Shown here: piece after piece, positions 1-64,000 of the stretch
How positions within the stretch are numbered: position 1 is the stretch's first letter
How the letters are laid out: every line of letters begins with the position of its first letter
Assembly (NCBI RefSeq): GCF_014643255.1
Contig: NZ_BMJI01000017.1
Location: 1-64,000 of the forward strand
Direction of reading: 5' to 3'
Length of the DNA: 64,000 nt
DNA from: Tersicoccus solisilvae
GTDB lineage: Bacteria; Actinomycetota; Actinomycetes; Actinomycetales; Micrococcaceae
The notes under the pieces: generated by a model
What the model was told of the DNA's origin: nothing
The model's input: only the letters and a program-made list of their open reading frames with translations
Databases searched by the model: none
Position numbers and translations under genes: made by a program

Positions 1-79
1 ACCATGGATGTCCGACGTCGACAGGCGACCCAACCCACATGTTTCTCCCGCTCCACGCGGGCCGCAAGGCCCCAGCCCG

Positions 80-98
80 CTATTGACGAGCTGGCGAG
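80..98 (+). repeat. dispersed repeat arm in gene-free left edge
   Basis: Bases 1-116 carry no gene. Within them, a 19-base sequence beginning CTATTGACGAGCTGGC is identical to the reverse complement of the left arm of the inverted repeat at 62895-62965. The preceding bases (about 39-45) contain CATGTTTC, a short string also found in the loop of that element, so this may be a diverged copy of the same unit. It lies just downstream of the enoyl-CoA hydratase stop codon, where a terminator would be expected. Function unknown. Confidence 0.6.
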
Positions 99-3091: not shown

Positions 3092-4591
<1,500 letters not shown>

Positions 4592-60628: not shown

Positions 60629-62884
60629 ATGTCCGCTCCCGAGCCCGCCCCCGAGACCACCTCGCTCCCCCTGGTCGACGTGCCGCCGCCGACGGCGGAG
60701 GACGTCGAGCCGACGGACGTCAACTACGACGAGGCGTTCTACCCCGCGCGGCCGCGGCAGGTGCGTCCCCGGGCGCGGCGCAACCAGCAGTACGGCGACG
60801 CGAAGCCGCCGTTCGACCCGGTGGGCACCAACCCGGCGTACGTCGAGTGGCTGCGCGGTCAATCGATGCTCGGCGACGCGAAGACCCTCTCCCGGCAGCT
60901 CTCCGGGCAGGCCAGCATGTGGCAGAACCCGTATGCGCGGCCGAATCCGCGCAAGGCCGTCAACAGCGCATCCGTGTGGTTCACCGCCTACCCCATCTCG
61001 CTGATCACCCGGCCGGGCCAGTCGTTCCTCGCCGCACTGGGCAGCCCCAAGCTGTGGGAGGCCTTCGAGCAGATCGGCATCCAGGCGGTCCACACGGGAC
61101 CCGTCAAGCGCGCGGGCGGGCTCGACGGCTGGGAGTACACGCCGAGCGTCGACGGTCACTTCGACCGGATGAGCATGGCCATCGACCCCCTGTTCGGCAC
61201 GGAGGACGAGTTCCGGTCCATGTGCGAGGTCGCCAAGGACCACGGCGGCACCATCATCGACGACATCGTGCCCGGCCACACCGGCAAGGGCGCCGACTTC
61301 CGCCTCGCCGAGATGAACTACCGCGACTACCCGGGGCTCTACCACATGGTCGACATCCCGGAGTCGGACTGGCACCTGCTGCCCGACGTGCCCCCCGGCC
61401 AGGACTCGGTGAACCTCGACGCCGCGGCGGAGCGCGCCCTGCAGGAGGCGGGCTACATCATCGGCGAGCTGCAGCGGGTCATCTTCTACGAGCCGGGCGT
61501 CAAGGAGACCAACTGGAGCGTGACCCGCCCGGTGATCGACACCACCGGCCAGGTGCGCCGCTGGGTGTACCTGCACTACTTCAAGGACGGCCAGCCCTCG
61601 CTGAACTGGCTGGACCCCACGTTCTCCGGGATGCGCCTGGTGATGGGCGACGCCCTGCACTCGCTGCTCGACCTGGGCACCGGAGCGCTCCGGCTGGACG
61701 CCAATGGCTTCCTCGGCGTCGAGAAGGGCGTCGAGGAGGCGGCGGGCTGGTCCGAGGGCCACCCCCTCTCCGAGGCGGCCAATCAGCTGATCGGGTCCAT
61801 GGTGCGCAAGGTCGGCGGGTTCACGTTCCAGGAGCTGAACCTGAGCATCGACGACATCCATTCGACCTCGTCCATCGGCCCCGACCTGTCCTACGACTTC
61901 GTCACCCGGCCGGGCTACCACCATGCACTCGTCACCGGGGACACCGAGTTCCTCCGGCTCACCCTGCGGCAGGCCCAGGAGATCGGCGTCGACCAGGCCA
62001 GCCTCGTGCACGCCCTGCAGAACCACGACGAGCTCACCTACGAACTGGTCCACTTCGTCACCCGGCACAAGGACGAGGTCTTCGAGCTCGGCGGCCGCTC
62101 CCTGACCGGCGCCGAGCTGGCCGAGCAGGTGCAGTCCACGCTGCGGGAGAGGATCACCGGCGAGGCGGCGCCGTACAACCTGGTGTTCACCACCAACGGG
62201 ATCGCCTGCACCACGACCAGCGTGATCACCGCGGCCCTCGGGATTCGCGACCTGGACACGATCACGGACGACGACGTCGACCGGATCCGCGACGCCCACC
62301 TGCTGCTGGCGATGTACAACGCCCTGCAGCCGGGCGTCTTCGCGCTGTCCGGCTGGGACCTACGCGGCGTGCTGCCCCTGGAACACGAGCAGGTGAAGTC
62401 CCTGATCGCGCAGGGCGACACCCGGTGGATCAACCGGGGCGCCCACGATCTGGCCGGGTCGATGTCCCAGACGAGGATGTCGGGGTCGGGCCTGCCCCGT
62501 GCCCGCAGCCTCTACGCGTCGCTGCCAGACCAGCTGGCGGACGAGAGCTCGTTCGCGATGCGCCTGTCGCGGATTCTGCAGATCCGCGACCGGCACGGCA
62601 TCGCGGCCGGCACCTTGCTGGACGTCCCGGACGTCTCCCACCCCGGGCTGCTCGTCATGGTGCAGCGCACGGCCACGGAGACCCTGGCCGTGACGGTCCT
62701 CAACTTCTCGGCCGACGAGGTGGACGGCACGATCCGCTCGGAGCACCTGCCCGACGGCGCCCGCGTCACCGACGCCTTCTCCGGGGAGGCGGTCGGCCGC
62801 ATCGACGGCGCGCACGAGCTGCCGATGCACCTGGGTGCGCACCGGGGCACGACGCTGCTGGTCCGGGAGGCGCCCGACGCCTGA
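60629..62884 (+). CDS. large GH13-type alpha-glucosyl hydrolase/transferase
   Basis: A 751-residue GH13 enzyme of unusual form. Residues 1-90 are hydrophilic. The barrel includes [20 protein letters not shown], a nucleophile region [16 protein letters not shown], the acid [12 protein letters not shown] and the third aspartate [16 protein letters not shown]. The C-terminal beta domain (about 640-745) follows. [10 protein letters not shown] and the RW(I)NRG... end are reminiscent of trehalose synthase-like GH13 proteins, but the substrate cannot be fixed. The ATG at 60629 follows GGAGG with 8-base spacing. It stands alone between rid and metB. Confidence 0.8.
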
Positions 62885-62894
62885 CCTCCCTCTC

Positions 62895-62965
62895 GCCAGC
62901 TCGTCAATAGATGTTCCATCCGGGCCCTCGGGGACCATGTTTCGTGCATCTATTGACGAGCTGGC
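62895..62965. repeat. inverted repeat with 19-bp perfect arms
   Basis: GCCAGCTCGTCAATAGATG (62895-62913) and its exact reverse complement (62947-62965) flank a 33-base loop containing CATGTTTC. The arms extend outward by CTCTC/GAGAG after a 2-base offset. It lies between the convergent GH13 and metB genes and could terminate both. The same arm recurs at 80-98, so it is a dispersed sequence rather than a simple hairpin. Confidence 0.8.
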
Positions 62966-62979
62966 ACGAGAGTGAGGGG

Positions 62980-64000
62980 CTAGCCGATCGCGGCGAAGGC
63001 GCCCTCGAGGTCGGCGATCAGGTCGTCGGCGTCCTCCAGTCCCACGGAGAGGCGCAGCAGGTCCTCGGGGACGGCGAGCTCGGTGCCCTTGACGGACGCG
63101 TGGGTCATCTCCGCTGGGTAGCAGATCAGGCTCTCCACGCCGCCGAGGGACTCGGCGAGCGCGAACAGCTCGGTGTGCCGCACCAGGTCCAGCGCCGCCT
63201 GCGGGCCGCCGGCCAGGCGCATCGAGACCATGCCGCCGAATCGGGACATCTGCCGGCCCGCGAGCTCGTGCCCCGGGTGGTCCGGCAGCCCCGGGTAGAA
63301 CACCTGGGAGACGGCCGGGTTGCCGGCCAGCGCCTCGGCCACCCGCTGCGCGTTCGCGGAGTGGCGTTCCATCCGCACGTCGAGGGTCTTCAGCGACCGG
63401 GAGGTCAGCCAGGCGTCCATCGGGGAGTTGATCGCCCCGACCGCGAACTGCAGGAACGCGATGCCCTCGGCCAGCTCGGCGTCGTCGCCGACCACCAGCG
63501 CCCCGCCGACGACGTCGGAGTGGCCCCCGATGTACTTCGTGGTGGAGTGCACGACGACGTCCGCGCCCAGGGACAGCGGCTGCTGCAGTGCCGGGGTGGC
63601 GAACGTGTTGTCGGCGACGACGACGGCGCCGGCCTCGTGCCCGATCGCCGCCAGCGCCGCGATGTCCGAGACGGTCATCAGCGGGTTGGACGGGGTCTCG
63701 ACCCAGAGCATCCTCGTGGTCGGCCGGATCGCGGCGCGCACCGCGTCCAGGTCGGCGACGTCCACGGTGGACAGCTCGATGCCCCAGGGTGCCCAGATCC
63801 GGTTCATCAGCCGGTGCGAGCCGCCGTACACGTCGTTGCCCATCAGCAGGTGATCCCCGGGCTTGAGCACCGCGCGGACCAGGGCGTCCTCCGCGGCGAG
63901 CCCGGAGCCGAAGGTGAAGGCCCGGCGCCCGCCCTCGAGGCTGGCGAGCTGGGTCTGCAGTCCGTCCCGGCTGGGGTTGCCGGAGCGGGAGTACTCGTAC
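62980..64000 (-). CDS. metB: cystathionine gamma-synthase (5' end outside window)
   Basis: At least 339 residues of a Cys/Met-metabolism PLP enzyme. YEYSRSGNPSRDGLQTQLASLEGG at the window edge is the conserved N-terminal PLP-phosphate region. Then come DVYGGSHRL, ETPSNPLM, VVADNTFATP, the PLP lysine in VVHSTTKYIGGHSD and the C-terminal RLSVGLEDADDLIADLEGAF. It joins O-acyl-homoserine and cysteine to cystathionine, although gamma-lyase and O-acetylhomoserine sulfhydrylase relatives look similar. The gene continues past base 64000; an internal ATG at 63870 is not the true start. Confidence 0.9.
   Translation of the reverse strand, partial: YEYSRSGNPSRDGLQTQLASLEGGRRAFTFGSGLAAEDALVRAVLKPGDHLLMGNDVYGGSHRLMNRIWAPWGIELSTVDVADLDAVRAAIRPTTRMLWVETPSNPLMTVSDIAALAAIGHEAGAVVVADNTFATPALQQPLSLGADVVVHSTTKYIGGHSDVVGGALVVGDDAELAEGIAFLQFAVGAINSPMDAWLTSRSLKTLDVRMERHSANAQRVAEALAGNPAVSQVFYPGLPDHPGHELAGRQMSRFGGMVSMRLAGGPQAALDLVRHTELFALAESLGGVESLICYPAEMTHASVKGTELAVPEDLLRLSVGLEDADDLIADLEGAFAAIG

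Follow-up and report, generated by a model that had tools for sequence, protein, structure and literature searches.

A palindrome between two convergent genes

The window analysed here is a stretch of 64,000 nucleotides of Tersicoccus solisilvae and forms part of contig 17 of a 3.34-Mb draft genome in 116 contigs. Near its right end, a gene whose product has the catalytic domain of alpha-amylases (PF00128; 60551-62884, plus strand) converges with a gene for a Cys/Met metabolism PLP-dependent enzyme, which extends past the end of the window (62980-63999, minus strand; PF01053 assigned from the portion 62980-63870). Between their stop codons lies the one intact palindrome of the window (62895-62965), which starts 10 nt after the first stop and ends 14 nt before the second. 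An alignment of 83 copies defines its left arm, GCCAGCTCGTCAATAGATG (62895-62913), and the right arm is CATCTATTGACGAGCTGGC (62947-62965), both read on the plus strand; the 33-nt centre between them (62914-62946) is variable and mosaic when centres are compared across copies. The earlier note had described an inverted pair around a 33-base loop, and this description is borne out. The left arm contains the hexamer AATAGA (62906-62911) and the right arm its mirror image, TCTATT (62949-62954), again on the plus strand; in other copies this is the insertion site of an IS481-family element, and at the window copy both sites are empty. The predicted RNA fold of 62880-62985 reaches -57.5 kcal/mol (z -6.8), and none of 200 shuffles was equally stable.

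At the left edge of the window, the earlier note had counted a third occurrence of the same 19 bases. Nineteen bases are common to the inverted pair alone (62895-62913 with 62947-62965), whereas the left-edge copy shares only 16 (80-95) and differs from the pair in the preceding CAT and in the next base. Exact matches to the 16-mer are found at 62895-62910 on the minus strand and at 62950-62965 and 80-95 on the plus strand, and with up to three mismatches there are four matches in the window against 0.34 expected, a number that none of 100 shuffles reached. Nor is the left-edge copy a free-standing arm, as it had been read. It is a right-arm remnant (80-95, plus strand) without a left partner, belonging to a second palindrome that is interrupted by a mobile element, element C, the end of which occupies positions 1-79. 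Other copies of this end, 100% and 99% identical, also end at palindrome arms, at the end of contig C33 and at the start of contig C8, and in all three places the element end consists of GC-rich, hairpin-like sequence. An open reading frame at 117-986 on the minus strand, which we take to be enoyl-CoA hydratase-like, has its stop 21 nt from the interrupted palindrome. The word CATGTTTC, noted before as common to the loop and the left edge, does have exactly two occurrences in the window (38-45 and 62936-62943), but we reject it as a shared motif: the left occurrence lies inside the end of element C, which is repeated at two other contig ends, and the sharing is therefore read as chance.

Family size and host range

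A count of further copies in the genome had been proposed by the earlier note, with the alternative outcome that there would be none. Such copies are abundant. When up to two mismatches are tolerated, the genome of the window contains 132 matches to the 16-base arm, compared to 2 for a reversed-pattern control, and 44 arm pairs are exact when C or G is allowed at one variable position, so the proposal of a dispersed repeat family was correct. Lone arms stand at contig ends, the places at which draft assemblies are interrupted by repeats. One might still think of chance recurrence or an assembly artefact, as the draft has 116 contigs and has such lone arms, but the excess of matches over the control refutes this, and the same loci carry the palindrome in a separately assembled genome, that of Tersicoccus sp. 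Bi-70. The probability of this explanation is practically nil, in line with the original view that chance recurrence was unlikely.

Intact copies were searched within preset spacing limits of 64-77 bp, in sequence taken around the matches listed. We read 56 of the intact copies in the genome of the window and 24 in Bi-70 (G002), and every one of them (56/56 and 24/24) measures 70 or 71 bp. C precedes the arm in 49/56 copies and G follows it in 46/56, which brings the true arm length to about 20 bp. A covariance model (R1) was made from 83 copies, namely 56 from the genome of the window, 24 from Bi-70 and 3 from a third Tersicoccus genome of 3.2 Mb (G001). At E<=0.1 it gave at least 134, 111 and 22 strand matches in these genomes, respectively; as nearly every listed copy was matched on both strands, this corresponds to roughly at least 67, 55 and 11 copies. 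Judged by these matches, the family occurs more sparsely in G001 than in the other two genomes.

Tersicoccus is known as a genus from spacecraft clean rooms. The exact arm is present in 3 of the 395 genomes of the bacterial family that were searched, all three Tersicoccus, and absent from the other 392, and a scan of named genomes with an arm-plus-centre pattern returned only Tersicoccus sp. Bi-70, with three stretches. Under stricter filters and at E<=0.001, R1 found 4 of 118 relatives, which were the three Tersicoccus genomes and one weak match in another Micrococcaceae genus (G093), at a single place (E 1.3e-4). This place (L211:1440-1620; C1 near 1277365) holds a palindrome, GGGTCGTCAA...TTGACGACCC, that shares a TCGTCAA core and adjoins a local repeat of ACGACCCAACGTCAGCGAACCGCAGTTCTT. 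Because no dispersed family was seen across the 400 kb of G093 inspected, it is a single look-alike or a distant relative. We rejected the presence of the family in other genera; as far as sequence comparison goes, and within the genomes searched, the palindrome family is restricted to Tersicoccus. Rfam yielded nothing beyond weak look-alikes of microRNA hairpins and one intron model, all far below gathering scores. The possibility that G001 has a different palindrome family was also rejected, as the top 45 words in 12-mer counts over 400 kb of that genome did not point to any further dominant palindrome of a dispersed kind. Relics of the present family do occur in those 400 kb (CGCCAGCTCGTC, 9 occurrences against 0.96 expected), and other frequent words include parS-like and DnaA-box-like ones.

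Placement at gene ends and conservation of the arms

Neighbouring strands were called from codon usage (114/117 correct on its own training segments) for 55 of the 56 copies, C24_16673 being left out because of a short flank. The neighbours are convergent at 28 copies, in tandem at 25 and divergent at 2. For long-ORF neighbours in the window the corresponding numbers are 9, 12 and 9 (n=30); the deficit of divergent pairs is clear (Fisher p 0.001) and the excess of convergent pairs reaches only p 0.07. Facing stop codons lie at 0-40 nt in 66 of 81 cases, with a median of 17 nt over the 76 non-negative distances (the 5 negative distances, where the frame call runs past the arm, were excluded from the median). 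These results agree with the earlier observation that the arms stand beside gene 3' ends.

Seventeen alignment columns are invariant in all 83 copies. Pairing of the arms (89.8%, against 88.4% in shuffles) and the covariation score (0.096, against 0.075) were each not reached in any of 500 shuffles, for a helix that included four centre pairs. Only one arm position, the outer C/G, has two common states; the arms agree there in 45/56 copies (binomial p 7e-5), which could partly be inherited rather than selected. At the other arm positions departures are mostly uncompensated, so the constraint looks as much one of sequence as one of structure. An extended stem in the flanks was rejected: comparing the cis flanks of the 56 copies with shuffled partners, 81/100 shuffles were at least as good by energy and 277/300 by ungapped pairs. 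The apparent flank complementarity of the window copy is for this reason attributed to composition, C-rich on the left and G-rich on the right.

Conservation of the arm letters beyond pairing needs, as in the invariant columns and the uncompensated departures, would also suit a binding site for a sequence-specific protein involved in the nucleoid, supercoiling or processing, with the hairpin being secondary. Supercoils are said to collect between convergent genes (PMC1525189), which would fit as well. The constant size of 70-71 bp and the inverted order can, however, also be explained by an RNA hairpin, and no candidate binding protein was identified. We consider such a protein site quite unlikely.

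The earlier note also spoke of terminators. The placement is indeed terminator-like and the hairpin is strong, as in intrinsic (rho-independent) terminators, but no T-run follows it, and a scan of the window copy for intrinsic terminators gave 0 sites. Transcription from either side would allow the arms of about 20 bp to form a strong hairpin, and this hairpin may end the mRNA or protect its 3' end, as a two-way terminator without a T-run or as a 3'-end stabilizer. Retention of the copies at gene ends would follow from such a role. Placement and fold together make a two-way 3'-end hairpin the most likely function of the palindrome itself.

Insertion of mobile elements into the arms

The arm is used as an insertion site by mobile elements. 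The best characterized of these, element A, is known from a full copy of 1115 bp in Bi-70 (C11:541708-542822), which lies at a GCTAGC site outside any palindrome. It has a transposase of the IS481 type (NF033577, 345 bits with a cut-off of 224), TGT...ACA ends and a 6-bp duplication (GCTAGC at the full copy), and its terminal sequences, TGTGATGTCCAGGG, are unlike the arm. When the three genomes were searched for these ends with at most one mismatch, the genome of the window yielded 9 places, 8 of which are genuine ends. All 8 abut the arm hexamer, at TCTATT/AATAGA or TCTATC/GATAGA and not at an NCTAGN target; the ninth place (C7:13170) and two places in G001 were judged by their flanks not to be IS ends. 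Paired by end type and duplication across contig gaps, the 8 junctions probably represent 4 insertions, one of which carries the rare variant TCTATC/GATAGA on both sides. Bi-70 has three junctions of element A in palindromes (C14 end, C18 end and C14 start). The C18/C14 insertion has TCTATT flanks on both sides of the contig gap, and its empty state is present in the genome of the window as the uninterrupted palindrome C22_43481.

In four of the five arm-inserted 3' ends that were read, the transposase frame stops inside the arm. On contig C9, with AATAGA in the arm, the frame closes as ...HHK-TAG, and on C5, C21 and Bi-70 C14, with TCTATTGA in the arm, it closes as ...HHIY-TGA; on C26, which has TCTATC, there is no immediate transposase stop. 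For this IS481-family element the details are visible: insertion takes place at the arm's TCTATT/AATAGA hexamer and duplicates 6 bp, and the missing stop codon is usually provided by the arm in either orientation, as AA-TAG-A or TCTAT-TGA. This gives a visible reason for the choice made by one element, whose transposase gene is completed by the target. TCTATT is found 99 times in arms and 6 times elsewhere in element-rich stretches that total about 264 kb (overlaps included), and in the window both occurrences are inside the palindrome and none is elsewhere. Because the hexamer is so rare outside the arms, hexamer specificity alone may explain the preference of element A for palindromes.

Three further elements were seen at arms. 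In the genome of the window, element B is at arms in 2/2 places, at about CAAT^AGATG, and element C in 3/3 places, at about CAT^CTATTG; as each can be read at one end only, their exact boundaries are uncertain. Element D was sighted at an arm once. As far as they can be read in the draft contigs, the ends of all four elements, A to D, are unlike the palindrome arms, and their junctions are slightly offset from one another within the arm. One small sequence is here a natural case of a landing site for several different mobile elements. DNA comparison of elements B and C with plasmids gave no match, nor did protein and domain searches with the 26-aa end of element B. Matches in other genera, where inspected (2/2 for C and 3/4 for B), fall within ordinary genes or next to them and were taken as chance. 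The end of element D (L080:1530-1628) shares 47 bp at 87% with a plasmid of Microbacterium sp. YJN-G (NZ_CP060403.1, 51723-51769), in which the match has two places, beside hypothetical genes. Behind the arm that adjoins element B at the C22 end (L068 near 3650-3690), GGTCGCCA units form a short tandem and resemble repeated outer-arm pieces.

Lone arms at contig ends stand beside mobile-element ends, and one could take the arms for terminal repeats that belong to the adjoining insertion sequences, or for solo relics left by them. The IS481 element, however, has its own, different terminal repeats and duplicates 6 bp of arm sequence, locus C22_43481 is uninterrupted in one species and interrupted at the same place in the other, and the ends of four different elements join the arm at slightly different points. 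These observations largely refute the relic explanation, which we regard as highly improbable.

Relation to known repeats and insertion sequences

REP sequences (the GTAG and CGTC super-families) and REP dimers are dispersed, extragenic and palindromic, lie mostly downstream of genes, have heterogeneous loops and are targets of several IS types (PMC3733652, PMC1525189). The Tersicoccus palindromes resemble them in their many dispersed copies, their extragenic position behind genes and their use as targets by IS elements. The anatomy is different: the unit is 70-71 bp with an arm of 19-20 bp, compared to 20-40 bp plus an unpaired tag in the REP sequences of those accounts, and the CGTC found here lies within the paired arm (pairing with GACG in the 83 copies) and not in an unpaired GTAG/CGTC tag. 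The Y1/RAYT transposase was found in none of the three draft Tersicoccus genomes searched, although the same sources also mention CGTC REPs without a dedicated transposase (PMC3733652, PMC1525189), and in our searches the palindromes belong to one genus of Actinomycetota. This is a REP-like system without REP anatomy or a detected RAYT in the Actinomycetota. The palindromes serve IS elements as REPs do, offering common landing sites beside genes where an insertion is presumably harmless. We put a probability of roughly 0.6 on the overall reading that these are Tersicoccus-restricted extragenic palindromes which probably act as two-way 3'-end hairpins and which are used as IS insertion sites.

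Correia, RUP, BOX and ERIC-type repeats are likewise short, dispersed and intergenic with hairpin potential, but have other sequences and occur in other taxa.

Some IS types, of the IS3, IS110, IS4, IS256 and IS5 families, have all their copies at the same point of a palindrome (PMC1525189), and element A is similar to these REP-targeting elements in its fixed insertion point within a dispersed palindrome. IS481 has 0 occurrences in the main text of that paper, in which Tobes and Pareja treat REP-targeting IS elements (PMC1525189). IS481-family elements with an NCTAGN target include ISLxc2 of Leifsonia xyli and TnRErm46/ISRe46 of Rhodococcus equi, in which the target provides the stop codon of the transposase (PMC2516522, PMC6794481). 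Element A shares with them the 6-bp duplication and the target-supplied stop, and the ends of ISLxc2 (TGTGTTTCTCAGGGACGTTGGT, 1105 bp) and of the Tersicoccus element (TGTGATGTCCAGGGACGTTG, 1115 bp) are similar. It differs in that 8/8 junctions in the genome of the window are on CTAT in the arm and not on CTAG, and in that it receives two kinds of stop, TAG and TGA, from the two orientations. In the literature outside subscription papers, we found no paper joining Tersicoccus with palindromes and, among the matches listed, no description of palindromic insertion sites for IS481.

Locus history and mosaic centres

As the earlier note had suggested, presence in a sister species was examined, and palindromes are found at the same loci in Bi-70. 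Intact pairs exist at 11 common loci, with the window copy among them (L135:9982-10052), in Bi-70 stretches that were selected around Bi-70 copies and thus over-sample sharing. Sixteen loci of the genome of the window are comparable in Bi-70; the palindrome is missing there at two of them (C10_36087 and C3_193744), the counterpart of C1_34376 is degenerate and that of C13_28015 is a remnant. Arms at the 11 common loci are 92% identical and the adjacent 20-nt flanks 66%; between different loci, the values are 94% and 58%. Since arms are no more alike at shared loci than at different ones, the arm evolves family-wide, by constraint or by copying, and not locus by locus. Loci common to two species make this a tractable system for studying the upkeep and diversification of palindromes.

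The earlier note further suggested mobile cassettes, and the palindromes could be MITE-like elements spread by a transposase that recognizes the arms. That two species carry dozens of nearly identical arms, that copy number differs between species and that two loci lack a palindrome in Bi-70 would all fit, and palindromes have indeed been gained and lost between species. Around the 56 copies, however, direct repeats of 3-9 bases are not above those of shuffled partners (0 at offset 0 and one case each at offsets 1 and 2), 11 intact copies occupy the same loci in the Bi-70 stretches picked around copies of that genome, and the centres are non-identical, unlike those of a recent burst. No transposon end bearing the arms was found, the IS481 ends being different. 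Y1/RAYT (PF01797) is in 0/3 Tersicoccus genomes, with the control positive in 5/14 reference genomes, although in searches of draft genomes for this or another partner an autonomous element on small contigs could escape. The suggestion of mobile cassettes is unsupported, and we regard spreading of this kind as possible but unlikely.

The centres vary among copies and are made of recurring half types (TTCCATCC, TCGACGCA, TCGCATCC, CTCCATCC and others). Between the left and the right half, agreement of the inner 8-mers is seen in 1/56 copies (1.3 expected), of the first three centre bases in 16/56 (12.2 expected; 264/2000 shuffles as high) and of positions 4-8 in 2/56 (5.6 expected). As this agreement is not above chance, the halves combine freely. 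One half, TCGACGCAAGCGGTTGCG, which recurs in several copies such as L041, L044 and L132, resembles what we take to be LacI-type operator palindromes, which may be chance. At the 11 common loci, the similarity of centres in the better orientation exceeded all 20000 permutations; the same orientation was reached by 1/20000 and the inverted one by 194/20000. Centres at C22_41276, C22_50285 and C26_5979 match better inverted, each above its 10 non-orthologous comparisons, those at C10_37871, C16_66869 and C26_24485 match better directly, and the remaining five pairs show no clear preference. Plain identity gives a weaker picture, with averages of 0.71 for the same and 0.72 for the inverted orientation. 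Comparison of the centres suggests that they likely flip between species, and only likely because they are partly self-complementary.

These centres leave room for a bolder interpretation, in which the palindromes are invertible and shuffle their halves independently of RAYT, with exchanged or flipped centres between constant arms, and in which the arms are a docking code for several unrelated elements. Selection or arm-to-arm copying would hold the arms constant across species, and the IS481-type element would have moved its target from CTAG to the CTAT of the arm, taking its stop codon from there. We consider this interpretation unlikely. Missing copies speak against the 3'-end hairpin that we prefer. 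Among 8 distinct comparable loci of G001, taken from 400 kb and partly selected around G001 matches, 2 have kept the palindrome, 2 have a short remnant and 4 have none; with the 2 of 16 in Bi-70, these absences indicate that neighbouring genes can do without it. At the locus of C23_42307, the gene end in G001 carries a different inverted repeat, GGTCAATTGA...TCAATTGACC (L209).
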